Position numbers and translations under genes: made by a program. The notes below the pieces were generated by a model. That model did no database searches, was not told where the DNA came from, and was given only the letters and a program-made list of their open reading frames with translations. DNA of 21,096 bases from a virus, in the IMG/VR virus record IMGVR_UViG_3300037838_000122, positions 1 through 21,096 of that record; one strand, given 5' to 3'. Shown in pieces: positions 1,015-21,096 of the stretch (position 1 is the first letter of the stretch; every line of letters begins with the position of its first letter).

Positions 1015-3915
1015 CTATTTTGTCCTTTGTCGGAAGGTTGAAAGCTGCCTGAATGCTTTAATCCCTAAATGGCAGCAGTTCATAACGGCATACTCGCTAA
1101 ACACTTCAACCGGAGTAGCCGCAAAATTAACTCCTGTTACCTCATAGGAACCAGTAACCGTTACTGTATTGCCCGCAAGGTTGAACCCGTATTCCCCAGC
1201 AATAGACACTTCATTGCCTGTTTGTATCCCGTAAGAACCAGTAGCACTTAACGGAGTCCCCTCCACTACTACTGCATACAAGCCTGTGGCGGAAGCCTCT
1301 CCAGATGTGCCTACAGAATAATCTCCTGGTGCAGTGGACGCTATCCCACTGGCCGATACTGCGTAGGAGCCTGTGGCTGTAGCGGCAGTTCCACTTTCAA
1401 TGAATGCGTAGGAACCCGTTGCGGGAACTGGAGACCCCGTAGATATGACCGCATAAAACCCCGTAGCCGTGGCGGTTCCAGCCGCATCCACCACATAAGA
1501 CCCGGTGGCCGCAGCAGTTCTTCCTGTTGTCAAAACCCTATAAGCACCCGTGGTCGCAACTGCTATGGCCGTACTTATAACGGCGTATGATCCCCCTGCC
1601 GAAGCAGCACCAGAGGAAATGTTAGACACATCATAAGAGCAATTAACTCGGGACTCTGTTCCTTCTATAATAACTGCATAAGAGCCTATGGATGTTGCCG
1701 GAAGGCCAGCGGTTGTTGAAGCGACATCGTAGGAACTTAATACCGCAACGACTGTACCTGCAGACACAACAGCGTATGAACCTGTAGCAGTGAGCGAGCC
1801 AGCGGTTGTTGAAGCGACATCGTAACTACCCGTTGCTATAACTGCGGGTCCAGTAGAGACAACTGCATAGTCACTTACAGCAGTTGCAATATCCCCTGTC
1901 GCCATGACTGCGTAAGTGCTTGTAGCCGTGGATACATTGCCGACACCTGTAACGGCATAGTTCCCTGTTGCGGTTACGGGAATAACTGCGGACACAACAG
2001 CGTATGATCCAGCAGCGGCTACTGGCAACCCGGTTGCTGCAACTGCATAAAAACCTGTTGCCGTTACAGAACCGCTGGTTGTCGAAAAGATATCGTAGGA
2101 ACTTAATACAGCAACAGCCGTTGCCGGAGAAGTAACGGCGTAAGTGCTAGTTGCTGTAGATTCTGTCCCTACCGAAACAACTGCATACTCACTCGAAACT
2201 GCTACACCAGTGGGAGCATAGGCAACAGCATAAGAACCTGTGGCTGGAACCGCAGTTCCTGCGGAAACAACTGCATAAAAACCTGTTGCTGTTGCAGAAC
2301 CAGCAGTTGTCGAAGAAACATCGTAGGAACTTGATACAGCAACGGCAACAGCCGTTGAAGTGACTGCATAAGCACCTGTCGAGGCTGTCACTGGCCCGAC
2401 CGATGTCACCGCATAGTCACCCGTGGCGGCTGCCGGAAGGCCGCTGGTTGTTGACGACACATCGTAGGAACTTAATACGGCAACTGATGTTCCTGTAGAG
2501 GTGACGGCATAGGAACCTGTGGCCGTGGACACGGTGCCACTTGTTGTTGCTTCGACATCGTAGGAACTCAATAACGCAACTGATGTTCCTGTCGAGGTAA
2601 CAGCGTAAGACCCGGTTGCTGTTGTCACCGTTCCTGTCGAAGTAACGGCGTAGGAACCTGTGGAGGTCTCTACCGTTCCTGTCGAGGCAACTGCATAAGC
2701 ACCCGTGGCAGTTGTGGCTGTTCCCGCAGAAGTAACTGCGTAAGAGCCTGTTGCGGTTGCCAGAGACCCCGTAAGCAAGATCGCATAAGCACCCGTTGCG
2801 GGTACGGCTGTCCCTGCAGAAGTAACTGCGTAATCACCCGTGGCAGACACCGAGCCACTTGTTGTTACTTCGACATCATAGGAACTCAATAACGCAACTG
2901 ATGTTCCTGTAGCAGTCACCGCATAGTCACTCGTGGCAGTCGTCGGGCTTCCAGTGGAAGTTACTGCATAGGAGCCAGTGGCAGTGACGGGGGTTCCTGC
3001 GGTGGTGCCACCAGACAACTCGGCAAAAAACATCGACATTGAAATGCCAGAGTTGGTGTCTGCTCCCGTATCCCAACCGTAGTAGGAAGAACCCGTGGAT
3101 GTCCAGTTCCCATTGAAGGCAGAAAAAGACCCTGCCCCGCTATACTTCTTGAAAAACCATGTGAGTTGATGCTTGGAAGCGATAATCGACTGTCCACCAA
3201 TGGTTGTCCCGCTGAGGTGCCAAGTAGCCGTCGAGTCAACGCTCGTCGATCCGGTGCCCACCGGGCTTGCTGTTGGATCTATCGCTGTCCCTCTTCTGAT
3301 TGCACAGAAAAAGACATTCATAAACTCGTTGCCGACAGTCCCCAGTCTCCATGCACCAGAGAGTCCATTGTTGTCGCTGGGTTGTCGCCACTCATAATCT
3401 GCTTGGTCCGGCATAATAAACGATGAAGACCTGCAAGCATCTCTCATGTCAGTTTCAAGGGAAGTATCCGCTCCCCTGACCACGAAGCACTTGAGTTGCC
3501 TTGGAGCGTTGCCACCGCCGGAAGCAGACGCATCGGAATATAAAACGGTCTGAGCAGTACCTCCCGATCCTGCAAGTGCGTGACTACTGGTTATGGGCAA
3601 GACCCAGATCCCCATCGCCTGTCGCCCACCATTACTGGTCGCTCTCTGATAGCCAAAATCCAAGAAGTCGGCGGTGGCAGTCCCCCCGGCACTTGTCGTG
3701 TAACTAGCAACTTGACCAGTCACATGGATTGGATACCCGCCAGCATTACCCGGATCGAGACTATTGCCGTTTCTTTCTTCGGTATGCTGAAGCACTAGAT
3801 AATCGCCAGCAACCAAGGCACCTGTTGCTCCAACTGAGTCGATTGTCAGGCTCAACGAAGCCGAAGTTGCTGCGGCCTGTAGGTTGCCTTGTAGATCCAG
3901 CACCTCAAGTGCCAT
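1015..3915 (-). CDS. Giant repeat-built tail fibre / adhesin
   Basis: A 966-residue structural protein. The frame is open further upstream, but I choose the ATG at 3913-3915 because it overlaps the LamG gene stop (TGATGGCACTT), the same junction used between the decoration and protease genes. Residues 1 to about 305 form a globular domain rich in G, S, T, W and Y (for example LTWFFKKYSGAGSFSAFNGN, SSYYGWDTG). From there on, about 42 tandem units of 14-17 residues follow, with consensus G-T-x-V-x-A-T-G-S-Y-A-V-x-S-T, ending in a short tail with a Cys pair (NCC) and a basic end. Such Thr/Ser/Gly/Val repeats usually make an extended beta shaft. The N-terminal domain probably attaches to the virion or the ligand. 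Cell attachment is inferred from its place among tail genes. No family is recognised for the repeat. Confidence 0.7.
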   Translation of the reverse strand: MALEVLDLQGNLQAAATSASLSLTIDSVGATGALVAGDYLVLQHTEERNGNSLDPGNAGGYPIHVTGQVASYTTSAGGTATADFLDFGYQRATSNGGRQAMGIWVLPITSSHALAGSGGTAQTVLYSDASASGGGNAPRQLKCFVVRGADTSLETDMRDACRSSSFIMPDQADYEWRQPSDNNGLSGAWRLGTVGNEFMNVFFCAIRRGTAIDPTASPVGTGSTSVDSTATWHLSGTTIGGQSIIASKHQLTWFFKKYSGAGSFSAFNGNWTSTGSSYYGWDTGADTNSGISMSMFFAELSGGTTAGTPVTATGSYAVTSTGSPTTATSDYAVTATGTSVALLSSYDVEVTTSGSVSATGDYAVTSAGTAVPATGAYAILLTGSLATATGSYAVTSAGTATTATGAYAVASTGTVETSTGSYAVTSTGTVTTATGSYAVTSTGTSVALLSSYDVEATTSGTVSTATGSYAVTSTGTSVAVLSSYDVSSTTSGLPAAATGDYAVTSVGPVTASTGAYAVTSTAVAVAVSSSYDVSSTTAGSATATGFYAVVSAGTAVPATGSYAVAYAPTGVAVSSEYAVVSVGTESTATSTYAVTSPATAVAVLSSYDIFSTTSGSVTATGFYAVAATGLPVAAAGSYAVVSAVIPVTATGNYAVTGVGNVSTATSTYAVMATGDIATAVSDYAVVSTGPAVIATGSYDVASTTAGSLTATGSYAVVSAGTVVAVLSSYDVASTTAGLPATSIGSYAVIIEGTESRVNCSYDVSNISSGAASAGGSYAVISTAIAVATTGAYRVLTTGRTAAATGSYVVDAAGTATATGFYAVISTGSPVPATGSYAFIESGTAATATGSYAVSASGIASTAPGDYSVGTSGEASATGLYAVVVEGTPLSATGSYGIQTGNEVSIAGEYGFNLAGNTVTVTGSYEVTGVNFAATPVEVFSEYAVMNCCHLGIKAFRQLSTFRQRTK
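1084..2997 (-). repeat. About 42 tandem 42-51 bp coding repeats (15-residue units)
   Basis: The C-terminal two thirds of the fibre gene is a tandem array averaging 15.2 codons per unit over 638 codons. There are two kinds: a common 14-15 residue 'TGSYAVTST' type and a longer 17 residue 'SSYDVSSTTSG' type placed irregularly among them. DNA divergence is uneven. Positions 2536-2592 and 2854-2910 match at 55 of 57 bases (differences at 2549/2867 and 2560/2878), and 1705-1731 equals 1798-1824 over 27 bases, which suggests recent internal duplication or conversion. Confidence 0.9.
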
Positions 3916-5054
3916 CAGGTCACCGTCAGTTCTACTGTCAGCGTTCCTGGACTCTGGCATTTGGTCACATAGAAGGTGATCTGCTCACCTTGGGCTGCAC
4001 TGTAACTGACGGACGGACTCACCCCATAAGTGCTTGCACAAGTGATGTCTGTTGCCAATAGATACGACGAAGCATAGGGGTCTGTCGATTTGTATGGGTG
4101 AGCCGCCGGTAGAGAGTTGGAAGCCCCTGACCCCCAGTATTTATGGGCTAGATATCCTTCGATCTTCTGCCTGATTTCAGTGGAGACTACACCCTCAAAG
4201 AAGATCAACTCAGAGATGGTACCGTTCAATCTCCGTAACTGCGGGGATCCGCCTCTATCTCTTCCGAGGACAGCCATCCCGTTGTAGGTCCAGCCTCCGG
4301 TCAAAGAGTTTATCGTGATAGACTGATCGGTATATAAAGCGGTGCCGTCAACCCACTCAGACAAAATGGATTTTGTACCGGTATCTTCCCCACACACCAA
4401 TACTCTCATTTCGTCGTTGCCGAGGTCTGGGTCTTGATAGTTAAATTCATTCCCTGAGTCGTTCCTCACTCTGAGGTCTCCCCCTTTGTGGCCCCAGGTC
4501 GAGTTCCAGGCAGTGTCCCCGATGTCGTATGTGCCAATTATTGGAGAATTGTTAGACGATGTGTAATCTCCGATCACTGCAAACACAGAGAAAGCCGCAT
4601 CGTAAGGAAGAGAGTAGGTTCCTAAGTAGCCAGTGAGGTACTGCGTTCCGTCGAAGTCGATGCCTTCGTTTGAGCCGGGACCAGTTACCGTCTTGTAAAG
4701 AGGCTCATCCCCTGAAGATGTCTGCCTGAAAACTGCCTGATCTTTATCCCACGACCTCCATACACTAACGGCATCTCCATCAGAGGCACCGGCAGGGGAG
4801 CCAACATCCTCGGCCCTGAAGTGCCAGAGCATTTCCCCATTGTCGTCGTAATCAGAATCATCCATGAGGGGGGCATTCGGTGTACTCATCTTCAGGTTGA
4901 AGGCAGCAGTACCCGAAGAAATCTTGGCTCGGACTCCAGTGATGGTCTTGCCGGAACCACGCCAAAGAGCTGTTGATCCAACGGCACCATGACTCGTCAA
5001 ACCGGGATGGCAGTTTTCAAAGGTGTACTCATAAACAGCCATTTCACCGCCCAT
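3915..5054 (-). CDS. LamG/concanavalin-like domain tail fibre protein
   Basis: A 379-residue virion protein with a laminin-G/concanavalin-A-like jelly roll in the middle (about residues 85-320). Visible marks are the 'LWHFRAEDV' opening, the 'GIDFDGTQYLTGYLG' strand pair, 'AAFSVFAVIGDY', and the closing 'ISELIFFEGVVS..RQKIEGYLAHKYW....LPAAHPYKS', a signature of LamG domains in fibre and surface proteins, which commonly bind carbohydrate. Residues 320-379 form a beta-rich tail. The start could be the ATG at 5054 or the one four codons later (5042, MAVYEY), and neither has a strong ribosome site. It lies just before the repeat fibre with a TGATG junction, so the two are probably co-translated and may form one appendage. 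Host receptor binding is inferred. Confidence 0.7.
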   Translation of the reverse strand: MGGEMAVYEYTFENCHPGLTSHGAVGSTALWRGSGKTITGVRAKISSGTAAFNLKMSTPNAPLMDDSDYDDNGEMLWHFRAEDVGSPAGASDGDAVSVWRSWDKDQAVFRQTSSGDEPLYKTVTGPGSNEGIDFDGTQYLTGYLGTYSLPYDAAFSVFAVIGDYTSSNNSPIIGTYDIGDTAWNSTWGHKGGDLRVRNDSGNEFNYQDPDLGNDEMRVLVCGEDTGTKSILSEWVDGTALYTDQSITINSLTGGWTYNGMAVLGRDRGGSPQLRRLNGTISELIFFEGVVSTEIRQKIEGYLAHKYWGSGASNSLPAAHPYKSTDPYASSYLLATDITCASTYGVSPSVSYSAAQGEQITFYVTKCQSPGTLTVELTVT

Positions 5055-11997: not shown

Positions 11998-12095
11998 ACA
12001 GGGGTGCAGAAACCCGGTGAATAGGTAGACTAATGGTTCCGGTTGCGGTATCTTTATTGGTGTTGGACATGGGGTCTGACAGAACTGGAGGAAAC
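11998..12095. promoter_or_regulatory. Divergent intergenic region between TerL and the plus-strand module
   Basis: About 98 bases separate the likely TerL start from the first plus-strand gene. Promoters for both the late minus-strand operon and the plus-strand module should lie here. I see no convincing sigma-70 -35/-10 pair in either direction, which would fit phage-specific or activated transcription. Only the ribosome site CTGGAGG (12085-12091) before the ATG at 12096 is clear. Confidence 0.4.
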
Positions 12096-12494
12096 ATGAA
12101 GGACAGAATCGAAAAGCAAACAGAAGAGGATCAGGAAATGGATGAGTACACCCAGCATGAGGTGATCTCTGAGATGAGTGAAGAGGAGAAGGTCGAGAAT
12201 GACATCGCTGGTTGGGGTGATACACCTGAGACAACCGACACTCATCTTGTATGGGTCTTCAATGAGAACTGTTTGATGTCCGGCAAGCCTTGGATGACCA
12301 ACCTGAAAACCAGCGACTCATGCCCCATGTTCGTTCTCAATGAATGGCGATTCTCTCCGGAGCAGTTGGGAGACCTTGAAGACACCTTCAAAGATATCTT
12401 TGGAGACGATTTTCCTGCTGGAGATGTCCACTACTTGACTGGAACCAGAGAAGAACTGGAAGCCAAGATCTATGGAGAAGGAGAACAGGCATGA
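12096..12494 (+). CDS. Acidic hypothetical protein, first gene of plus-strand module
   Basis: A 132-residue protein of unknown function. I choose the ATG at 12096 (MKDRIEKQTEEDQEM) over the ATG of an upstream extension because CTGGAGG sits five bases before it. The first 40 residues are strongly acidic and probably helical or disordered (EEDQEMDEYTQHEV, EMSEEEKVEND). Residues 50-132 look folded: 'HLVWVFNENCLM', 'CPMFVLNEWRFSPEQLGDLEDTFKDIFGDDFPAGDVHYLTG'. No membrane segment or signal peptide is seen. The end overlaps the next start by four bases (ATGA), so the two are coupled. High acidity and small size recall DNA-mimic or anti-defence proteins, but that is only a suggestion. Confidence 0.65.
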   Translation: MKDRIEKQTEEDQEMDEYTQHEVISEMSEEEKVENDIAGWGDTPETTDTHLVWVFNENCLMSGKPWMTNLKTSDSCPMFVLNEWRFSPEQLGDLEDTFKDIFGDDFPAGDVHYLTGTREELEAKIYGEGEQA

Positions 12495-12991
12495 ACAACA
12501 GCAAGATCTGTGGAGATTCATTCCAAGAGACTGGAGCGAATTTCTATGACTCCTTTTCCTTGGCTAAAGTCCTCAGAAGAGCCAATCCAAGTGGGTACAA
12601 ATTCCCCGGAAGTTGGGGAGAGAGGGGAGAAGATTTCCCTCCTCTTAGTTGTCCCCCACCGGAAGTCCTCTCCTTGGATTGGTCCAAGGTGGATGGCTTC
12701 CTCGATTATGGATATGCATGGCTCGACTCTGACACTGACCGCATCACCGCACCGGACCCCCACAGGGACCACCGGGAGATGCTCAGGAATGCCAATGCTG
12801 ATGAAGTGATGAAGGTGCTTGTTGCTCACCTGGTGGAGTCTGTCAGGCAAGAATCCAAGAACAGAGCAGACCCTGAACTGGATGAGATCACCCATATCCA
12901 TGAATGGCAATCAGAGTCAATTGAGAGAACAAAGAACTGGATTATAGCACTCTGCAATGGTGCAGAATTCCCGAAAGCAAAGAGGAAGTGA
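12491..12991 (+). CDS. Hypothetical protein
   Basis: A 166-residue soluble protein, not recognised. It starts MNNSKICGDSFQET with AAGGAG seven to eight bases upstream inside the previous gene. Features visible: a Pro/aromatic-rich middle (GYKFPGSWGERGEDFPPLSC, then LSLDWSKVDGFLDYGYAWLD), a His/Asp-rich turn (DPHRDHREML at about 89-98), and a helical C-terminus with HIHEWQSESIERTKNWIIAL before a basic end (PKAKRK). The C-terminal helix is amphipathic. It overlaps the following gene by one base (TGATG). No catalytic motif is evident. Confidence 0.65.
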   Translation: MNNSKICGDSFQETGANFYDSFSLAKVLRRANPSGYKFPGSWGERGEDFPPLSCPPPEVLSLDWSKVDGFLDYGYAWLDSDTDRITAPDPHRDHREMLRNANADEVMKVLVAHLVESVRQESKNRADPELDEITHIHEWQSESIERTKNWIIALCNGAEFPKAKRK

Positions 12992-13161
12992 TGGGCCTGT
13001 TTGGATTCCTCAAAGATCTCATCCTCTTCCTCTGGTATGGGGAGGATGACGACCTGGACCTTGACTGGATCCCTGAGTCTCAGGAGGAGGCTGAGATTCA
13101 GGAGGAGATGAGTGCTGACTGGACAGAAAGACAACTCAAGAAAGGGAGGAAAGTGCAATGA
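12991..13161 (+). CDS. Small acidic protein with hydrophobic N-terminus
   Basis: A 56-residue gene, shorter than usual gene-calling limits. It begins MGLFGFLKDLILFLWYGEDD, a hydrophobic or amphipathic helix of about 17 residues, followed by a very acidic stretch (DDDLDLDWIPESQEEAEIQEE) and a basic end (RQLKKGRKVQ). The start is supported by AGAGGA five bases upstream and by the TGATG junction with the preceding gene, and the end overlaps the next ATG (ATGA). The N-terminus could lie on the membrane. Function unknown. Confidence 0.55.
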   Translation: MGLFGFLKDLILFLWYGEDDDLDLDWIPESQEEAEIQEEMSADWTERQLKKGRKVQ

Positions 13162-13328
13162 GCAGATCAGATTGGTCAAAGGCAAAGAAACGCAAGAAGA
13201 AAGGGAAGAAGAACAATTCTCCCAAGGACAGTGCTGCACAACTGACCGCTGACATCGAACAAGATTTCCCGTATGAATCGGACAACATCGACAATAGCCA
13301 TCACCGTGATCTAGACACGGACATCTAA
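13158..13328 (+). CDS. Small lysine-rich/acidic bipartite protein
   Basis: A 56-residue protein with a strikingly charged N-terminus (SKAKKRKKKGKKNN at about residues 7-20) and an acidic C-terminal half (ADIEQDFPYESDNIDN, DLDTDI). GGGAGG lies eight bases before the ATG, and the ATGA overlap with the preceding gene argues that it is real. The basic tail would bind nucleic acid non-specifically, while the acidic half may bind a partner. No family is recognised. Confidence 0.55.
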   Translation: MSRSDWSKAKKRKKKGKKNNSPKDSAAQLTADIEQDFPYESDNIDNSHHRDLDTDI

Positions 13329-13347
13329 ACAGAGAGAGAGGTACATC

Positions 13348-13761
13348 ATGACGATCTTTTACTGGTTCCTGTTGAGACCTATAGCGGGACATTGTGGGGC
13401 ATCTGAGTCCCACCTCTTCTGTCCCTTGCAGATGCGAGACCACACTGATTGGTTGAAGAAGAATCGAGGTGTGGTGATCGAGCCGGAGATCTGGAAAGAT
13501 CTGGCGGAAGGCCAATCGACGGAAGCGATTCCCTACGGTGGAGGACACGAAGTAGTAATTACCCGGAAAATCCAGGTCAAGAGAGAAGTCACAATCTTAA
13601 GGACAGGAACGACCGTTGGAGGTGAGGAGAGAGCCACACAGGTGGAGGTCTACTGCGGGGCGTGCGGTGACCAATTCTATGCCAATGGTGGAGATGAAGG
13701 ATTCTCCGATGCGGACATCCGAGCCCTTGCTGCCAACGAGCAGGGGTTGTGTCGCTGCTAA
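13348..13761 (+). CDS. Hypothetical protein with C-terminal zinc-binding-like cysteines
   Basis: A 137-residue protein starting MTIFYWFLLRPIAGHCG, with GAGAGAGAGG about six bases before the ATG. The first 28 residues are hydrophobic and look unlike the rest; a second possible start is the Met in PLQMRDHTDWLKK. The body has a beta-rich part with 'EVVITRKIQVKREVTILRTGT', then 'VEVYCGACGDQFYANGG' and a terminal 'QGLCRC'. The CxxC plus CxC layout suggests a small structural zinc site joining the C-terminal strand. Function unknown; the neighbours are small unknowns of the same operon. Confidence 0.6.
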   Translation: MTIFYWFLLRPIAGHCGASESHLFCPLQMRDHTDWLKKNRGVVIEPEIWKDLAEGQSTEAIPYGGGHEVVITRKIQVKREVTILRTGTTVGGEERATQVEVYCGACGDQFYANGGDEGFSDADIRALAANEQGLCRC

Positions 13762-13869
13762 GTAAGATAGGAGGAGGGGGCACACTTGGCAAGAAACACC
13801 GGGAGGAGATGAGGAGATGCACGGAATCCTTCCAACTCTCGAATATGTTTGCTGGTGATAATTAAAGGT

Positions 13870-13900
13870 GGGGGGAGGGGAACTGGAGACCCCTCCCCCC
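13870..13900. repeat. G-run/C-run perfect hairpin
   Basis: GGGGGGAGGGG (13870-13880) and CCCCTCCCCCC (13890-13900) are a perfect 11-bp inverted repeat with a nine-base loop, in the 170-base gap between the fifth and sixth plus-strand genes. No U-run follows in either direction, so it is not a textbook terminator. It may stall or attenuate transcription before the helix-turn-helix gene, or fold as a G-rich structure. The remainder of 13762-13931 holds only reading frames under 20 codons. Confidence 0.65.
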
Positions 13901-13931
13901 CTGCTCAAATGGAAGGAGATCAAATCCTACA

Positions 13932-14135
13932 ATGCAAACGATTGGAGCAACAGTGGAATTCATTTCAACACCGGAAGCAGCAGCACTCCTCAGCCTGACC
14001 GACAGAAGGGTCACCCAGCTGTGTAAGAATGGAACCTTTGGAACCAAGATCGGGGGGAGGTGGTTGATCACCAGGAACCAGGTCAAGAAGTATCAGAAGA
14101 AGAGGAAGGCTCCTGGTCGTCCTCCAAAGAAGTAG
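13932..14135 (+). CDS. Excisionase-type HTH protein with AT-hook-like tail
   Basis: A 67-residue DNA-binding protein. Residues 9-54 (EFISTPEAAALLSLTDRRVTQLCKNGTFGTKIGGRWLITRNQVKKY) match the winged helix-turn-helix of the excisionase/MerR-like HTH_17 group: 'eaA.lL.vs.rrV..l...G.....iGgrWlI....v'. The tail KKRKAPGRPPKK contains a GRP core flanked by basic residues, as in an AT-hook that grips the minor groove of AT-rich DNA. It could be a recombination directionality factor or a repressor/activator of the divergent promoters. No integrase lies in the window. GGAAGGAG lies upstream (13911-13918), rather far from the ATG. The 3' end overlaps the convergent HNH gene by 53 bases. Confidence 0.75.
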   Translation: MQTIGATVEFISTPEAAALLSLTDRRVTQLCKNGTFGTKIGGRWLITRNQVKKYQKKRKAPGRPPKK

Positions 14136-15160: not shown

Positions 15161-15886
15161 TCATCTCTGTGCAGTCTCTCCAGTCAGGGTCTCCCACCGC
15201 TCGACGATCACATCGCAGTATCTGGGATCGATCTCCATGCCGTAGCACTTCCGCCCCAGGTTGTCGGCGGCGATCAGCGTTGTGCCGCTGCCGAGGAAGG
15301 GGTCGTAGACCAGCCATCCACGCTTGCTCGAGTTCTTGATGCACCGCTCGATCAGTGGAATGGGTTTCATGGTCGGATGTTCTTTGCTCGCTGATGGCCT
15401 TGGGCATTCCCATACTGTTGTCTGGGTTCTGTCGTCGATAAAGTAATGCCCAGCACCTGGCTTCCAACCGTAGATGATCGATTCGTGTTGATAGTGGTAA
15501 TCTGCTCGTCCTAACACCATCCGATCCTTCACCCATGCGATTTGATGTTTAGGTGCAAGCCCTGCGATATCGATGCCAGTCCAAAATCTAGAATACGGCT
15601 CCCCAGGAGGTGCGAAGATGTAATACGCCGATCCAGGGGTGAGTGGTGCGATTGCCATCGAACTATTGATGATCAATTCGGTTTCATCCAATGTGAGGTT
15701 GTCATTTTGAACAATCAACCCATCTGGTCTTTTCGTGAATTCATCCCCTCGATAGGCGATCCCATATGGCGGATCCGTCACCATCAACTGGGCCACCTCC
15801 CCACCCATCAACCGCTCGACATCTTCCGCCTTTGTGGAGTCGCCGCAGAGTAGGCGATGGCGAGACCTGACCTGGAGGCTACCCAT
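15161..15886 (-). CDS. DNA methyltransferase, beta class (N6A or N4C)
   Basis: A 241-residue amino-methyltransferase that transfers methyl from SAM to adenine N6 or cytosine N4. The ATG at 15884-15886 overlaps the ParB-like gene stop (ATGGGTAG). Motifs: 'LLCGDST' (12-18), catalytic DPPY (38-41, motif IV), 'EHPTMKP' (169-175), SAM-binding DPFLGSGTT (195-203, motif I), GMEIDPRYCD (216-225). Motif IV before motif I marks the beta class. The length is that of the compact catalytic unit with no large target-recognition domain. It probably protects the phage from host restriction. In many phages this unit is fused behind a ParB domain; here it is a separate but coupled gene. Confidence 0.88.
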   Translation of the reverse strand: MGSLQVRSRHRLLCGDSTKAEDVERLMGGEVAQLMVTDPPYGIAYRGDEFTKRPDGLIVQNDNLTLDETELIINSSMAIAPLTPGSAYYIFAPPGEPYSRFWTGIDIAGLAPKHQIAWVKDRMVLGRADYHYQHESIIYGWKPGAGHYFIDDRTQTTVWECPRPSASKEHPTMKPIPLIERCIKNSSKRGWLVYDPFLGSGTTLIAADNLGRKCYGMEIDPRYCDVIVERWETLTGETAQR

Positions 15887-16478
15887 CGCAGCACTCCTCC
15901 CCGACTCTGGCTGGATCGTAATCCTGCCGCTTGCCACACGCATCACACTCGAGGTATGCCCCGAAGAGAATCAGATCGCCAGGCTTCGTGATCGGCTCCA
16001 CTGGTGGCTCCGGGATTGGGCCTTCTTCTTCTGGTTCTTGATCTCTTGGGATGTCAGAGAATAAATCTTCAAGATCATCGTCATCAAATCCGACATCCTC
16101 TATCGTGAACCCTGAATCCTCATGAAGAGAATCAACCAGCTTCTTCAATGCCGGTGTATCCCACTCTGCTAGTTCAGCTGTTCTGTTATCTGCGATGGCA
16201 TAAGCTGTGGCAGTCACATCGTCATCATCAATGATCAGTGCTGCAATACGAGTCCACCCCAGAGACCTGGCAGCTTCCCATCTCGCATTCCCTGCCCTGA
16301 TCACCATGTTGGACTTCTGGACAACCACAGCAGCTCTCTGGCCAAATCGATTCAGGCTCCTCTTAACAGCATCCAGGTTCTTGGTCCCGTGCAATCTGGC
16401 ATTTGCTGGGTCAGGATTCAGAGAATCCAAATCAACTGCTAGATGCCGCAACCCTTCCATGATGTGGGTGTCTGACAT
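15879..16478 (-). CDS. ParB/Srx-type N-terminal domain protein with Cys-rich tail
   Basis: A 199-residue protein. The ParB-like fold covers about 10-110: 'VDLDSLNPDPANARLHGTKNLDAVKRSLNRFGQRAAVVV', then 'VIRAGNARWEAARSLGWTRIAALII' (59-83) with the conserved G-N-x-R box, then 'AYAIADNRTAELAEWD' (92-107), typical of phage ParB-methyltransferase proteins. After an acidic linker and Pro-rich 'EEEGPIPEPPVEP' comes 'ITKPGDLILFGAYLECDACG', a point where homologues run straight into the methyltransferase; here it becomes a CDAC...CC tail and stops. It lacks the true ParB partner-binding helices and probably acts with the methyltransferase. The start overlaps the SSB stop (TAATG). Confidence 0.8.
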   Translation of the reverse strand: MSDTHIMEGLRHLAVDLDSLNPDPANARLHGTKNLDAVKRSLNRFGQRAAVVVQKSNMVIRAGNARWEAARSLGWTRIAALIIDDDDVTATAYAIADNRTAELAEWDTPALKKLVDSLHEDSGFTIEDVGFDDDDLEDLFSDIPRDQEPEEEGPIPEPPVEPITKPGDLILFGAYLECDACGKRQDYDPARVGEECCDG

Positions 16479-16882
16479 TAGAAGGGAACCTCCTCACTGG
16501 GCACTGGACTGGATTCCGCAGATCTTCCGCCAGCTGGTGTATCGCCCTGGTCACCCTTTGACATGAAATGAACCCGATCCGCAACAATGCTCAACTTCGA
16601 CCTGGGATTCCCTTCCTTGTCTTGCCACTTGTCGAACTTCAATCGACCCTCCACAACCACTCCTCGACCTTTGGAGAGGTACTCATTGCAGACCTCACCC
16701 TGCCGACCCCAGACCGTGATATCTGTGAAACAGGTTTCCTCCTGGGACTCATCCTCACCCTTCCTGGTGAATCTCCTATTTGTGGCCAGTCCGAAACCGC
16801 AAACAGCAACACCTGAACTGATATTCTTCAGCTCTGGATCCCTGGTCAAGTTTCCCGCAATGATCACTTTATTCAACTCCAT
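16478..16882 (-). CDS. ssb: Single-stranded DNA-binding protein
   Basis: A 134-residue SSB, covering single-stranded DNA during replication and recombination. The OB fold is clear: 'MELNKVIIAGNLTRDPELKNISSGVAVCGFGLATNRRF' (1-38), 'CFTDITVWGRQGEVCNEYLSKGRGVVVEGRLKFDKWQDKEGNPRSKLSIVADRVHF' (51-106). A short disordered Gly/Ser/Pro linker ends in EEVPF, close to the usual acidic-Pro-Phe tip (DDIPF) by which SSB recruits partner proteins. The length fits a short phage SSB. It overlaps the SNase gene upstream by 14 bases and the ParB gene downstream by one base. Confidence 0.93.
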   Translation of the reverse strand: MELNKVIIAGNLTRDPELKNISSGVAVCGFGLATNRRFTRKGEDESQEETCFTDITVWGRQGEVCNEYLSKGRGVVVEGRLKFDKWQDKEGNPRSKLSIVADRVHFMSKGDQGDTPAGGRSAESSPVPSEEVPF

Positions 16883-17237
16883 GAGGATACTTCCAATCTA
16901 TTCTGAGATGGTCTGTCAGATAACCCTGAGCAGTTCTTCCATCATCGTCCTCCGGTAAGTTCACGAAAATTCGACCCAACCATCTCCCGTACTTCCCACT
17001 CTTCTGAGTGGTGATGAAGAATGGTCCAGGATGCATATCAAACCAAACTTGTGCCTTTGACTTGTATCGCAGTCCTTCCTTCTTGGTCTTCCCCCTTGGT
17101 TCAGGTGCATTGAAATCTGCAAGCCTGACAGTCAGATCAATCTGGATCTTGAATCCCAGATCCACTCGCAGGACAACTGTATCCCCATCGATCACCCTGA
17201 TCAGAATGCATCTGTAGGTGTAGTCTGGTTGGAACAT
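16869..17237 (-). CDS. SNase-type thermonuclease-like protein
   Basis: A 122-residue nuclease of the staphylococcal nuclease fold, which cleaves DNA or RNA with calcium. The catalytic set is visible: VIDGDT (16-20, with Asp17), 'VRLADFNAPE' with Arg38, Asp41 and Glu46, and 'KYGRWLGRIFV' with Arg85. The core strands 'DTVVLRVDLGF' and 'IDLTVRLADF' fit. There is no signal peptide, so it should act in the cytoplasm, unlike secreted relatives. It may trim DNA or degrade host nucleic acid. The ATG has AAGGAG further upstream. It is the first gene after a 200-base intergenic gap and overlaps the SSB gene. Confidence 0.85.
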   Translation of the reverse strand: MFQPDYTYRCILIRVIDGDTVVLRVDLGFKIQIDLTVRLADFNAPEPRGKTKKEGLRYKSKAQVWFDMHPGPFFITTQKSGKYGRWLGRIFVNLPEDDDGRTAQGYLTDHLRIDWKYPHGVE

Positions 17238-17262
17238 CGATCCCTCTCCTTTCTCAAAGATC

Positions 17263-17316
17263 CTCCCCCCCCCTGAATGATCAGCTCACTGGGGAACCCT
17301 CATTGCCAGGGGGGAG
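17263..17316 (-). terminator. C-run/G-run inverted repeat in the gap before the SNase gene
   Basis: The gap 17238-17406 holds CTCCCCCC (17263-17270) paired with GGGGGGAG (17309-17316), 8 bp with a 38-base loop, and a small GGGTG/CACCC stem (about 17321-17336). These may slow or end minus-strand transcription before the SNase/SSB group, or sit in a promoter region. No U-run follows, so termination is uncertain. No other gene is seen in this gap. Confidence 0.3.
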
Positions 17317-17406
17317 AGGTTGGGTGAAGTCCCACCCTCAACCAAACCCACTCAAATTACGCCGCACCCATCAAGTGGTGCAGGAACATCCTGCATGGTT
17401 GTTTTT

Positions 17407-17490
17407 TCATTGAATCAATGCCAACCCGATGAAGATCACCAGCTCAATTCCCAGGAGGATCCACAGCAGCTGGACCACTCTCCGGAACAT
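17407..17490 (-). CDS. Possible 27-residue membrane peptide
   Basis: An ATG at 17488-17490, directly after CTGGAGGAG, opens a frame overlapping the end of the 78-residue gene in another phase: MFRRVVQLLWILLGIELVIF then IGLALIQ and TGA. It is one hydrophobic helix after two arginines, the layout of a tiny membrane toxin or regulator. The ribosome site is only two bases from the ATG, closer than ideal, so this is a weak call. Confidence 0.3.
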   Translation of the reverse strand: MFRRVVQLLWILLGIELVIFIGLALIQ

Positions 17491-17680
17491 CTCCTCCAGT
17501 TGTTGCAGCTCGCTCTTTTTCTTCTTCAAGGGCCTCCATCAGATCTGCAACTGCTGGATGCGATGGGTGAACTGTCTTCCACCCTTCTGACCTGTGGAGG
17601 AATAATATCTCAACAATCCGACCCTCCAACCTTTTGATTCTGTACTCGACTTCCCAGATGATGGGATATTTCTCGTTCAT
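17444..17680 (-). CDS. Small coiled/helical hypothetical protein
   Basis: A 78-residue protein. I choose the ATG at 17678-17680 (MNEKYPIIWEVEYRIKRLEG) over an earlier TTG because it overlaps the preceding stop (ATGA) and has AGGAA seven bases upstream. Residues 10-30 and 45-65 are helical and charged (EYRIKRLEGRIVEILFL; AVADLMEALEEEKERAA). A Gly/Pro-rich, likely disordered tail (TTGGDVPESGPAAVDPPGN) ends it. No family is recognised. It is the last gene before a 200-base gap. Confidence 0.55.
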   Translation of the reverse strand: MNEKYPIIWEVEYRIKRLEGRIVEILFLHRSEGWKTVHPSHPAVADLMEALEEEKERAATTGGDVPESGPAAVDPPGN

Positions 17681-17985
17681 TTCTTTTTCCTTCTCTTTTG
17701 GCAACTCTCAACTTTCCTGATCTCCAGAACCACTCCAGTTGGAATGCAATTGCAGTTCCCCCAGGTATCTGGGTCATCTGTTGACCAGGTTCCAGCTATC
17801 GTGATGTGATGTCTAGTTTTGCTCACCACCCTCCCCACTGAAGTCATCTCCAGTGGTTTCATCTCCTTGACTTCTTCTCTCGAGATCCAGGCTGAATCAT
17901 GCCCGATGATATCTTGCCACCTCAGGATGACGATATCTCCAACCCTGATCAGGTCTTTGGTATCTCCCTGCTGTAATCTTGGCAT
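17677..17985 (-). CDS. Small beta-rich phage hypothetical protein
   Basis: A 102-residue protein whose core 'IRVGDIVILRWQDIIGHDSAWISREEVKEMKPLEMTSVGRVVSKTRHHITIAGTWST' follows a pattern common in small phage proteins of unknown role: 'vgDiv.v.W.Da....W.s.ee.......p....svG.vv......i.va'. It resembles a small SH3-like barrel. The C-terminus is basic (QKRRKKK). It overlaps the small-terminase gene by 37 bases, more than its neighbours; AGGAG lies three bases before the ATG. Function unknown. Confidence 0.6.
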   Translation of the reverse strand: MPRLQQGDTKDLIRVGDIVILRWQDIIGHDSAWISREEVKEMKPLEMTSVGRVVSKTRHHITIAGTWSTDDPDTWGNCNCIPTGVVLEIRKVESCQKRRKKK

Positions 17986-18539
17986 ATTCTCCTGGCTTCC
18001 TTCCCGATCTCATTCTCTATCTCTCTGGCATTCATGCCCAGGAGCCTGGGAGCTAGTCTCCTGCCCAAGCTCAGAAGATTCTGCTTCACCTCCCTGGCTC
18101 GATCTGCAAATGTCTCCTCAACATCTCGCCGGTTAATCAGATCTTTTTGGAGCTGCCGCACTGTCAGGATCTCTCTGATTGCTCTGGCCTTACGATACTC
18201 ATTTGACCAATTTTTCTCTTCCTCGAAATCCTGATCATCTGTGGCAGGGGAGATGTCAGAAATCACCCCACCCCTGGCCAGCTCAACTTCCTCGCTTTTG
18301 ATCCTCTGCTGGTTGTCCTCCTTGATCTCCATCTGAGGTCTACGCTTGGCCATCCTCTCCTTCTTCTTGGTCTTGACCCAGATCCTCACCTCACCCGGAT
18401 CAAACCTGCCATCGCTCCCCCTGAGATCCTCGAGTCCTGTCTGCTTCCATTTGTATACACAGGACTTGGAGACCCCTAGAAATGTGGCCAGCTCCATGAA
18501 GGTCTTTGGGTAATCGGATCTATCCAGGGTCATGGTCAT
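17949..18539 (-). CDS. Terminase small subunit-like protein (Nu1 type)
   Basis: A 196-residue DNA-recognition protein. I start at the ATG at 18537-18539 (MTMTLDRSDYPKTFM) with AGGA seven bases before; a TTG 11 codons upstream is an alternative. Residues 11-60 form a Nu1-like winged helix-turn-helix: 'KTFMELATFLGVSKSCVYKWKQTGLEDL...RFDPGEVRIWVKTK'. A basic/acidic linker follows. Residues 112-192 are helical, 'EYRKARAIREILTVRQLQKDLINRRDVEETFADRAREVKQNLLSLGRRLAPRLLGMNAREI', the usual C-terminal pattern of Nu1-like subunits. It should bind cos and recruit TerL. Unusually, it lies about 6 kb from TerL and in the other operon. It might instead be a HTH regulator. Confidence 0.65.
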   Translation of the reverse strand: MTMTLDRSDYPKTFMELATFLGVSKSCVYKWKQTGLEDLRGSDGRFDPGEVRIWVKTKKKERMAKRRPQMEIKEDNQQRIKSEEVELARGGVISDISPATDDQDFEEEKNWSNEYRKARAIREILTVRQLQKDLINRRDVEETFADRAREVKQNLLSLGRRLAPRLLGMNAREIENEIGKEARRICQDYSREIPKT

Positions 18540-18636
18540 CCCGAATTCCTGCGAGTCTGCACCAGCTGACAACTCGCCTCGATGCTGCCTGGGGAATCAA
18601 CCGGCACCTGGCAGGATGCTCTACCCCATATGAGTC

Positions 18637-18653
18637 CACAAATCGGAATTGTG
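18637..18653. promoter_or_regulatory. Possible operator: CACAA-N7-TTGTG
   Basis: A dyad CACAA (18637-18641) and TTGTG (18649-18653) with a seven-base centre lies in the 130-base gap (18540-18669) upstream of the small terminase. Next to it is a second short palindrome, CGAAATTCG. A regulator or the small terminase itself could bind here. The gap has no convincing reading frame, and lambda-type cos sites lie in this position relative to Nu1. Confidence 0.35.
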
Positions 18654-18669
18654 TACGAAATTCGCTTTT

Positions 18670-19020
18670 TCATCGGTAGGTGCCGCTAACCCCTTGGGGG
18701 GGTGCCCCAGAGGGACCCGCTGCAGCCTCACTCCTCCTGATCCTGTACAGGAGCCCGAAGACCCCTCCTGCCGACCCTAGGAACTCACCCACCCTCAGTG
18801 GTCCAGCCGAATCAGCGTCGACTGGCGAGGCTCCTGTGGCCTCTGGTGGACAGCAGTCAGGGAAGATACCAAACTCTGACCGATCCAGGGGGGGTGGCCC
18901 GATGTCCTCGACCATCTGCTGATAGGATGACTTGGCACTCTCGATCTCCAGTGAGTCCCCGCTGTGCAGTGCGTCCTGGCACAGAGCGTAGACATCGAAC
19001 CATCTTTGTAGCTGGCTCAT
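18670..19020 (-). CDS. Hypothetical protein
   Basis: A 116-residue protein, not recognised. The N-terminal half is helical ('MSQLQRWFDVYALCQDALHSGDSLEIESAKSSYQQMVEDIG'). The C-terminal half is Gly/Ala/Pro/Ser-rich and probably flexible ('GASPVDADSAGPLRVGEFLGSAGGVFGLLYRIRRSEAAAGPSGA'). The ATG overlaps the preceding stop (ATGA). The GC-rich end, with runs of G and C around 18695-18715, can fold into a hairpin that may end transcription. Codon use in the second half differs from its neighbours, so part of this may be non-functional. Confidence 0.5.
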   Translation of the reverse strand: MSQLQRWFDVYALCQDALHSGDSLEIESAKSSYQQMVEDIGPPPLDRSEFGIFPDCCPPEATGASPVDADSAGPLRVGEFLGSAGGVFGLLYRIRRSEAAAGPSGAPPQGVSGTYR

Positions 19021-19340
19021 TGGTCTCCCTCCCCGTCCTCCTGCTCAGGGATCTCGAGGTGGTTGTCACCATTGACGATCACATCCACCGAAGCTGCAAC
19101 CTTGACAGATCCTGCCGAGGGTGCAGCCTTGTGCAGTTCTTCTGCAATGCTGGGCGTGACCAGGTTGGTTGGCTTCAGCAGTCCCTTAGCCCTGGCCGAT
19201 GCCAGTGCTATCTGTCTCAGAGTCTTCAGGTCTGTCAGGTCTGTGACCTCAGACTCGAGCATCACATACAGCAGAGAGGTTGACTCGATCAGTGCTGCCT
19301 CTGCCTTCATCTTGGCTCTGTTTAAACTATCCGCATCCAT
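19017..19340 (-). CDS. Hypothetical protein
   Basis: A 107-residue protein beginning MDADSLNRAKMKAEAALIES. The first 60 residues are predicted helical ('LLYVMLESEVTDLTDLKTLRQIALASARAKGLL'). The tail is acidic (NHLEIPEQEDGEGDQ). The gene follows the ERCC4 gene with no spacing (TAA directly before ATG) and overlaps the next gene by four bases. No motif is recognised. Its place beside a structure-specific nuclease suggests a partner role, but this is a guess. Confidence 0.55.
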   Translation of the reverse strand: MDADSLNRAKMKAEAALIESTSLLYVMLESEVTDLTDLKTLRQIALASARAKGLLKPTNLVTPSIAEELHKAAPSAGSVKVAASVDVIVNGDNHLEIPEQEDGEGDQ

Positions 19341-19835
19341 TTAGCATTCCTCCAATGTCTTGAGTGTGTTTCGTGCTTGCTTGTATCTCCGACGCCATGC
19401 CAGGTACAGAAACTCCTTGGTGATGATCTGTGCCTGTTGCCGGTCTCCTGCTATCGATATCGGTAGACCCTTCCCCATCCACCCGAGCAGACTATTCCTT
19501 ACCGCATTGGGTGAGATCCTCGATCTCCACTGCCCCATTTCGATCTGTGACCAACTCCCCTCCACCACCAATAGGCGTGACTGAATCCCCATGAGCCTGA
19601 GGATCTGTCTCTCGAACCGCTCTCTATCTGTCCCGCAACACGAGACCAGATCTGCCAGAGACTTCCTCTCCACTGCTACCTCATTGGGGAAGTCTGCCAG
19701 CTGGTAGTCCCCCACATCACATTTTCCAACTTCACTCCTCAACGGATCCAAGGAGAATGGAAGTTGCTCCCTGGAATCTACAACTACTTTGCACCACTCA
19801 AGGGGTGCTTTACTTGGCAAGGATGATCTTAACAA
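19341..19835 (-). CDS. ERCC4/XPF-type nuclease
   Basis: A 164-residue protein carrying only the ERCC4 nuclease core, which cuts branched or flapped DNA. Marks: 'VVVDSREQLPF' (17-27), 'CDVGDYQL' (39-46), 'EVAVERKSLADL' (52-63), together the V-D-x-R-E / G-D-y / E-R-K-x-x-x-D metal-site set. The C-terminal part ('NAVRNSLLGWMGKGLPI', then 'ITKEFLYLAWRRR') is helical. It has no helicase domain and no clear helix-hairpin-helix, as in other phage versions. It is the first gene downstream of the iteron array, next to recombination genes. The start is a TTG with GGGGAG close before it, so the start is less certain. Confidence 0.85.
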   Translation of the reverse strand: MLRSSLPSKAPLEWCKVVVDSREQLPFSLDPLRSEVGKCDVGDYQLADFPNEVAVERKSLADLVSCCGTDRERFERQILRLMGIQSRLLVVEGSWSQIEMGQWRSRISPNAVRNSLLGWMGKGLPISIAGDRQQAQIITKEFLYLAWRRRYKQARNTLKTLEEC

Positions 19836-19853
19836 ATCTCCCCAAATTCATCA

Positions 19854-20100
19854 GGACAGTAGGCGAAATCTACTGTCCAGGCTTTAAGTCTTACCCCCGC
19901 TGGACTTTAGCAAGAACACTGGACAGTAGGACAGTAGATTCCTAATTACCCTATACTTTCATCATCTTTCTATTTGCTCTTCCTCTTTAGACATCTACTG
20001 TCCTACTGTCCAAGATGAGTAGTAAGAACAATAGATGTAAAGACTTACCCCCTGGACAGTAGACAATTTCTACTGTCCATTTAGGGTCGGTCTACTGTCC
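19854..20100. repeat. Symmetric iteron array; candidate replication origin or operator
   Basis: Nine perfect copies of GGACAGTA (or TACTGTCC) occur. The layout is: palindrome GGACAGTAG-N7-CTACTGTCC at 19854-19878; 42 bp; tandem GGACAGTAGGACAGTAGA at 19921-19938; 55-bp core; its reverse complement at 19994-20011; 42 bp; the palindrome again at 20054-20078; and a ninth copy at 20092-20100. All but the last are mirror-symmetric about 19966, and TAAGTCTT boxes (19885-19892, and reverse at 20040-20047) are mirror-symmetric too. The 55-bp core is AT- and pyrimidine-rich. Iterons next to a primase-helicase and SSB suggest an origin; an operator for both genes is the alternative. Confidence 0.85.
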
Positions 20101-20247
20101 ATTTGTCTCAACTTTCACCGGCACTGAGAAGAATGGATTTCGTTCTGCCTGGTTCACCAGGTCAAGAAATCCATCGATCTTCCTTTTGATCTCATCTATC
20201 TCGTATTCAATCTCAACCATTGTCATGTCTCCGATAGGTTTACTCAT
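20092..20247 (-). CDS. Small hypothetical protein
   Basis: A 51-residue protein. The ATG at 20245-20247 overlaps the preceding stop (ATGA). Sequence MSKPIGDMTMVEIEYEIDEI is followed by an amphipathic helix 'KRKIDGFLDLVNQAERNPFF' and a short end, SVPVKVETNGQ. Its last codons (AAT GGA CAG TAG) lie within the ninth iteron copy, so coding and repeat are superimposed. No family is recognised. It is the last gene before the array. Confidence 0.55.
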   Translation of the reverse strand: MSKPIGDMTMVEIEYEIDEIKRKIDGFLDLVNQAERNPFFSVPVKVETNGQ

Positions 20248-20570
20248 TTCCCCTGCCTCGCTTTTTCTTCCTCGATTGCACATCTGATGACCATCCTGGC
20301 CCACCTCTCGAGCAGCTCAGGAGTCGCTTCAGATCCTGGGAGCCGGTGAGATATCACGACCAGATCTTCCTTGGAGAATCTTGGGCTGATCACGACTTGA
20401 CCACGCTCCTCGAGGAGTTTCCTTCTGCGAGCCTGGTATCCATCTCTCAAATGATCTCGCAACCGTTTTGCTTCTGCTCGCTGTTGCTCAGTGGTTGGGA
20501 TTCGGACTACATACCGTGACCTCTTTGTAGCCTTCTTCTTTGCAGTCTTCTTCTTTGTAGCCTTCTTCAA
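20244..20570 (-). CDS. Lys-rich-tailed small protein, paralog of its neighbour
   Basis: A 108-residue protein. It opens with MKKATKKKTAKKKATKRSRY, a tail resembling histone H1 or HU-type lysine/alanine tails. A second region has 'RAEAKRLRDHLRDGYQARRRKLLEERGQ', and the C-terminal 'FSKEDLVVISHRLPGSEATPELLERWARMVIRCAIEE' is clearly similar to the 65-residue neighbour (KEEL/KEDL, EAT, PEL, EW/RWA). The basic tail should bind DNA without sequence preference; the shared domain may join partner proteins. It overlaps both neighbours by four bases. Confidence 0.6.
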   Translation of the reverse strand: MKKATKKKTAKKKATKRSRYVVRIPTTEQQRAEAKRLRDHLRDGYQARRRKLLEERGQVVISPRFSKEDLVVISHRLPGSEATPELLERWARMVIRCAIEEEKARQGK

Positions 20571-20764
20571 CTTGGTCCTTTCGGTTCACCAGGCGTGTAC
20601 TCCTTCTGGTATTCAGCAGTTGTATCCAGTGCCTCCCTGAGGATCTTCTTTGACCACTCGATCAACTCTGGAGCAGTGGCCAAGCCAGTGGCCTCCAATC
20701 CCTTGAGATCCTTCTTGATCGTCCTCAGCTCTTCCTTGGTGAGGTTTGGCCAGATCCTTCTCAT
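20567..20764 (-). CDS. Small helical protein, paralog of its neighbour
   Basis: A 65-residue protein, MRRIWPNLTKEELRTIKKDL then KGLEATGLATAPELIEWSKKILREALDTTAEYQ and a Pro/Gly-rich end. It consists mostly of two helices. AAGGAGG at the proper distance precedes the ATG, among the best ribosome sites in the window. Its core aligns with the C-terminal domain of the next gene, so the pair appears to come from duplication. It lies twelve bases after the primase stop. Function unknown. Confidence 0.6.
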   Translation of the reverse strand: MRRIWPNLTKEELRTIKKDLKGLEATGLATAPELIEWSKKILREALDTTAEYQKEYTPGEPKGPS

Positions 20765-20776
20765 CGCTTCCTCCTT

Positions 20777-21096
20777 CTAGAATGGGTACTCAGGCATCTC
20801 TGTTTTGGTTTGGATTCCCTGTCGCACTCGGATTCCACCTGTCTTGGATGCTGGATATCCCCTCCTGCCAAGATCCTTGCTGAACCGTGCAGAGTTCATC
20901 TGCTTGATGAATCTGCCATGCCCCTCTGTGTCTGCCCACTTGACAAAACTTTCCCAGAGTTCCTTGACCGGTGTTGACCCGGATCCAACAGAACACTGCT
21001 CATCGATCCAGCCACCGATGACATCCTCACTGGCTCGATAGTCTGAGGTCAGCTCCTCCACCGCAGGACATGATCCGAGACCATCCTTGAAGTATG
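20777..21096 (-). CDS. Partial D5/P4-type primase-helicase (C-terminal end)
   Basis: The frame is open to the right window edge and gives about 106 C-terminal residues. 'YFKDGLGSCPAVEELTSDYRASEDVIGGWIDEQC' followed by 'PVKELWESFVKWADTEGHGRFIKQMNSARFSKDLGRRGYPASKTGGIRVRQGI' matches the C-terminal end of phage/plasmid P4-family primases with a D5-type helicase: the 'a...yR.e.D....fi...c' linker and the winged-helix 'vk.l...Y..Wa.......f...L...G' unit. A GTG at 21061 opens a shorter version, but the upstream residues fit the family, so it is treated as partial. This is the replication initiator or helicase candidate for the nearby iteron array. Confidence 0.75.
   Translation of the reverse strand, partial: YFKDGLGSCPAVEELTSDYRASEDVIGGWIDEQCSVGSGSTPVKELWESFVKWADTEGHGRFIKQMNSARFSKDLGRRGYPASKTGGIRVRQGIQTKTEMPEYPF

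Follow-up and report, generated by a model that had tools for sequence, protein, structure and literature searches.

A mirror-symmetric iteron array downstream of a phage D5-family primase-helicase gene, a candidate replication origin

INTRODUCTION

In the database record of Streptococcus thermophilus phage Sfi21, the origin of replication is annotated as a 302-bp noncoding region at the end of a putative primase gene, and this 302-bp element is reported to function as an origin in its own right when the phage infects (PMC6356513). The record of Lactobacillus phage A2 likewise places its rep_origin directly at the end of the primase gene. In the SaPIs, the C-terminal domain of Rep recognizes iterons directly downstream of its own gene, apparently as two hexamers, and the C-terminal domain of the SCCmec protein Cch2 binds its direct repeats (PMC7581432). 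The archaeal plasmid pRN1 has its origin, in the form of a stem-loop, just downstream of the gene for a primase-SF3 helicase-winged-helix protein (PMC4234260). The loading of D5-family helicases onto DNA, whether in phages, satellites, or large DNA viruses, is understood only in part.

Here, we analyzed a 21,096-nucleotide stretch of viral DNA (IMG/VR record IMGVR_UViG_3300037838_000122, positions 1 to 21,096; "the window" below). An earlier reading of the letters without database searches (the sequence-only reading) had singled out a repeat array in the window as a candidate phage replication origin and knew of no described system with such a geometry. Our analysis upholds the candidate, on grounds set out below; the second claim fails, as the layout recurs at the annotated Sfi21 and A2 origins.

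RESULTS

The array extends from position 19854 to position 20100, in the noncoding gap between an ERCC4-type nuclease gene and a small open reading frame (ORF) at positions 20092 to 20304, and contains nine exact copies of the 9-mer GGACAGTAG/CTACTGTCC. These iterons start at positions 19854 (plus strand), 19870 (minus), 19921 (plus), 19929 (plus), 19995 (minus), 20003 (minus), 20054 (plus), 20070 (minus), and 20092 (minus). The sequence-only reading had correctly counted nine perfect copies in 247 bp but had taken the unit as 8 bp rather than 9; similarly, its 18-bp tandem pairs are 17 bp long, each made of two 9-mers that share one base and repeat with a period of 8. No further exact copy of the 9-mer was found outside the array in the whole 21-kb window. 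With one mismatch allowed, the window held 14 matches compared with 4.8 expected, and the nine exact ones were all in the array.

Eight of the nine sites form an exact mirror about position 19966, as had been claimed; the two start positions add up to the same value in each of its four pairs, so the symmetry is exact. When nine oriented sites were placed at random 200,000 times, four exact pairs never arose, and three arose in 356 placements. The sites lie 33, 41, 92, and 108 bp from the axis. On the left, a 25-bp palindrome (positions 19854 to 19878) is formed by iterons 1 (plus) and 2 (minus), with arms of 9 bp and a spacer of 7 bp, and is followed by a 42-bp spacer and by a plus-strand tandem pair, iterons 3 and 4 with a period of 8, pointing at the core (positions 19921 to 19937). 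The right half mirrors these elements, with a minus-strand tandem pair (iterons 5 and 6, positions 19995 to 20011), a second 42-bp spacer, and a second 25-bp palindrome (iterons 7 [plus] and 8 [minus], positions 20054 to 20078). The palindromes and spacers are as first described. Between the tandem pairs lies the core (positions 19938 to 19994), a likely unwinding element, which is indeed AT rich (68% A+T, compared with 57% for the region), although it measures 57 bp rather than the 55 bp first given; it is purine rich on the gene-sense (minus) strand. The ninth iteron (positions 20092 to 20100, minus strand) is not part of the mirror and overlaps the end of the small ORF.

All annotatable genes near the array are on the minus strand. 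Past the array is the ERCC4-type nuclease gene (positions 19341 to 19835; Pfam ERCC4, 7e-9; PHROG 3490, 4e-12). On its other side, the array lies downstream of a D5-family primase-helicase gene and on the same strand, 677 bp past the primase stop codon. Three small minus-strand ORFs intervene, at positions 20567 to 20764, 20244 to 20570 (with a Lys-rich N terminus), and 20092 to 20304 (70 amino acids, ending at the array). The window ends inside the primase-helicase gene and holds the C-terminal 105 residues (positions 20777 to 21094, minus strand); the missing part is seen in a closely related contig, L018, where the full protein of 714 amino acids is encoded at positions 15818 to 17962.

This protein gave clear matches to D5_N (4e-20) and to the SF3-like DUF5906 and weak matches to a DnaG-type Zn ribbon and a T7-like primase. 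An AlphaFold model of the last 434 residues (pLDDT of 84) matched the SaPI5 primase-helicase (PDB 7om0) with a Z score of 26.7 over 363 residues at 4.9 Å (model residues 3 to 428) and also matched D5-type helicases of large DNA viruses, with matches at the sequence level as well; Pfam Pox_D5 was matched by 15 of 22 aligned primase relatives. By our reading of the model, residues 363 to 425 would form a winged helix, which falls in the part of the protein encoded within the window and is likely the reader of the iterons. D5_N, an SF3 core, and this predicted C-terminal winged helix together are the features of a self-loading D5/SF3 initiator.

A GC-skew minimum at position 19966, proposed as a check on the origin, is absent; the skew continues across the array and tracks the gene strand. 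At positions 12033 to 14135, a short block of plus-strand ORFs, closed by an HTH_17 protein (positions 13932 to 14135), breaks the minus-strand operon and flips the skew. Elsewhere on the minus strand, two overlapping ORFs (positions 15161 to 15946 and 15879 to 16478) correspond to the C- and N-terminal parts, respectively, of the ParB_N plus N6_N4 methyltransferase model PDLC03229; this looks like a gene split by a frameshift or naturally two genes. The ORF at positions 1015 to 3960 (minus strand) encodes a 981-residue protein without a Pfam match, which consists largely of short ATGSYAVTSTG-type repeats and is likely a repetitive virion protein.

Searching for the 25-bp palindrome, a check suggested by the sequence-only reading, yielded two IMG/VR contigs (L010/L018 and L011/L019) that hold it and are 98% identical to the window in the overlap. 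Both have the gene order PD-(D/E)XK exonuclease, RecT, D5-family primase-helicase, three small ORFs, and array. Each carries all nine copies with identical spacing and none elsewhere in its sequence (19.3 and 15.3 kb). Differences from the window fall at positions 19892, 19901, 19902, 19910, 20013, 20014, 20017, 20048, and 20049; changes affect 0 of 79 iteron nucleotides and 0 of 57 core nucleotides versus 10 of 111 spacer nucleotides (Fisher P = 2.7e-4, iterons plus core versus spacers). Two further features of the sequence-only reading, the TAAGTCTT boxes and a direct similarity between the two 42-bp spacers, are present in the window but fared less well here: the boxes are changed in the close relatives and were rejected as a second conserved motif, and the spacer similarity is not kept. 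Just past the primase stop, L019 has about 200 extra bases (L019 positions 1752 to 1957, compared with window positions 20747 to 20775), with a 29-bp stretch repeated at their two ends; the other relative and the window are without it.

Relatives sought with the ERCC4 nuclease or primase peptides comprised nothing beyond these two near-identical contigs, and there was no DNA similarity to named phages over positions 18500 to 21096. The tandem, also suggested for searching, gave single 17-bp matches in other viral contigs (L012 to L015), at about the level of chance by our estimate; these contigs had no BLAST similarity to the window.

An alignment of seven primases of this kind was used to fetch 80 viral loci, to which 11 loci of named phages were added. 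Enough downstream sequence was available for 87 loci, forming 56 nonredundant clusters of relatives of this primase (approximately 25 to 35% identical). The zone searched was the 450 bp that span and follow the primase stop, in which we counted 8-mers recurring within 300 bp. An 8-mer present at least four times was found downstream of the primase in 45% of clusters, compared with 2% upstream, 1.5% elsewhere in the same loci, and 0.2% of dinucleotide shuffles; for at least five copies, the values were 30%, 0%, 0.5%, and 0%, respectively. The layout was scored as two same-direction copies of a single 7-mer, 8 to 12 bp apart, with an opposite copy facing them 45 to 110 bp away. It was found downstream in 25 of 56 clusters; the controls gave 0 of 53 (upstream), 2 of 1,394 (elsewhere), and 6 of 1,680 (shuffles). 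A pair on both sides was present downstream of the primase in 6 of 56 clusters and in none of the controls. Neighboring sites no more than 13 bp apart in the relatives ran in the same direction 64 times and in opposite directions twice; pairs in one direction, 8 to 12 bp apart, are the rule. The core was richer in A+T than its region in all 22 arrays compared; a purine bias of the core was seen in 11 of the 22, which is no bias. Where relatives carry an array, it mostly lies directly after the primase stop; in L044 it is displaced by 1,150 bp.

The iteron words vary among these phages (GTGAATAG, GTGACGGA, TGGGACAC, TTAGACGA, and others). In L075, with the word GTGAATAG, nine sites have the order ++-++--+-, identical to that of the window in the gene sense, and the gaps between sites are 21, 20, 58, 10, 77, 10, 50, and 18, compared with 22, 16, 51, 8, 66, 8, 51, and 16 in the window. 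Therefore, given this order and spacing and the recurrence of the layout, it is the geometry that recurs and not repetition alone, which is the kind of conservation that the sequence-only reading had asked for. Since L075 has a site at the same point of its order, the ninth iteron of the window may not be accidental.

Single or irregular copies in related genomes had been named as an outcome that would tell against the origin; the close relatives and many distant ones show the opposite, although about half of the distant ones are without the layout. This half, among the 56 clusters, was scored by exact matching; many of the layout-negative relatives have three copies of a word, so the true share with the layout may be higher. 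A mirror test with 1-bp tolerance was significant in only a few single relatives (L035, L090, L093, and L101), because the other layouts are near-mirrors only. For some extended arrays (e.g., L056, L080, and L110), the axis was set wrongly by the automatic procedure, and their offsets are unusable.

Similarity between iterons tracked similarity between winged helices (Mantel P = 0.0025); covariation of the two beyond general relatedness was not significant (partial P = 0.09). Two relatives have arrays of particular form. Approximately 1,075 to 1,340 bp past the primase stop, L044 has an array of GTGTAGTAA and, next to it, three AGCCTACAC copies in a run of their own; this putative origin may thus carry two distinct binding words. 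From 0 to 310 bp past its primase stop, L093 has thirteen GTGGCGCA sites (at most one mismatch) with five mirror pairs, a larger symmetric array than that of the window.

DISCUSSION

We conclude that the array is very probably the phage's origin of replication, read by the phage's own self-loading D5/SF3-type primase-helicase. Origin activity is inferred from the position of the array by replication genes, the conservation of its iterons and core, and the occurrence of the same layout at the Sfi21 and A2 origins and in the relatives. We propose that the C-terminal winged helix of the primase-helicase would bind GGACAGTAG and that the inward-facing inner tandem pairs and the outer palindromes would nucleate two hexamers, face to face across the 57-bp core. 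ATP-driven remodeling could then melt the AT-rich core, leaving one strand in each ring; the N-terminal Zn-ribbon primase part would make primers, and replication would proceed in both directions from the core. Two equal rings in a head-to-head arrangement would be consistent with the exact mirror. Several observations weigh against this reading: the 677-bp distance from the primase stop, unlike the position in most relatives with an array; the absent GC-skew signal; the relatives in which the layout was not found; and the nonsignificant covariation of iterons and winged helices beyond relatedness. The product of a small ORF could instead be the protein that binds the iterons.

Other functions for the array were weighed against an origin. 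It might be an auxiliary region like crr of P4, holding initiator sites required in cis, while strands open at another origin of the phage. P4 offers a precedent: type I repeats are found at its ori and also at its crr, and of these two regions it is crr that directly follows the alpha gene. We regard this as improbable here: no second cluster of the word was found in the window or the two close relatives, which together make up most of a genome; the core is AT rich and unchanged; and in Sfi21 and A2 it is the region directly after the primase that is annotated as the origin.

We think it quite improbable that the array is an operator at which a repressor or activator, perhaps the product of a small ORF, controls the operon starting at the ERCC4 nuclease gene. 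In favor of an operator, the array directly precedes the ERCC4 gene and, on the same strand, the terminase and head genes; a dimeric regulator would be well matched to symmetric 9-bp sites; and three small genes of no assigned function adjoin the array. However, the single promoter-like match is weak, on the opposite strand, and within chance; an initiator is the better fit to nine sites around an AT-rich core that does not change; and the layout is found after the primase gene even where the gene context is unrelated, as well as at annotated origins. A role in DNA packaging, partition, or site-specific recombination is highly improbable, since the layout follows primase genes in the relatives, the 57 bp between the arms hold no recombinase or transposase, and the ParB_N-like ORF 3.4 kb away resembles the N-terminal half of a methyltransferase, even though a gene resembling that for a terminase small subunit is 1.3 kb away and mirror repeats can resemble recombination or transposon ends.

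The ground plan shared across distant phages is more interesting than the single array. We consider a broader proposal about as likely as not: that the mirror plan (outer sites, an inward tandem pair, an AT-rich core of about 45 to 90 bp, and the mirror image of these) is general for origins of D5-family self-loading primase-helicases, is kept though the words change and no more than roughly one-third of residues are common to the initiators, and physically determines how two helicase rings are placed head to head. A putative origin with an exact mirror and an unchanging core, taken together with about 25 natural variants that have different words and a similar plan, provides a substrate series for studying whether two rings load head to head and what spacing they need. 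An inward-facing pair 3′ of a D5 primase gene also gives a rule for finding origins in the genomes of uncultured phages.

The array does not fit the classical iteron origin of RepA plasmids and lambda O, in which direct repeats in one orientation lie beside an AT-rich region and are bound by a Rep or O initiator, because its iterons are mirrored in both orientations and the sole initiator-like neighbor found is the primase-helicase. In P4, the type I repeats are 8 bp long, some of them form same-direction pairs that point inward, and crr lies just downstream of the alpha gene; unlike in the window, the repeats are divided between two regions, ori and crr, the latter of which contains a 120-bp direct duplication. 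The SaPI5 Rep and Cch2 proteins are D5_N/Primase_Cterm helicases, as the window's protein appears to be, and the fold match is to the SaPI5 primase-helicase; however, they belong to satellite and cassette elements, and the Cch2 site consists of three 5-nucleotide iterons. The SaPI origin is likened to the array by its published description only.

The closest likeness is to Sfi21 and A2. Like these origins, the array is noncoding, lies 3′ of a D5-type primase-helicase gene in a replication module, and has a short word facing inward on both sides of an AT-rich core. Sfi21 shares with it a primase of this family and two inward tandem pairs with a period of 8, whose distances from the axis are 40 and 48 bp rather than 33 and 41; it differs in its word (TTAGTTAC), in beginning directly at the primase stop, and in its less regular outer sites. 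The Sfi21 origin is backed by experiment, whereas the array is known from its sequence. In A2, sites lie 38, 46, 102, and 114 bp to the right of the axis of an AT-rich core and are nearly mirrored on the left, but the word is ACGGGAGG, the outer sites are tandem rather than palindromic, and the origin is not set off from the primase. This geometry may already have been described in print, for example, in the older phage literature. Read as an origin, the array is thus a primase-linked origin of a kind already known, with an unusually exact mirror.
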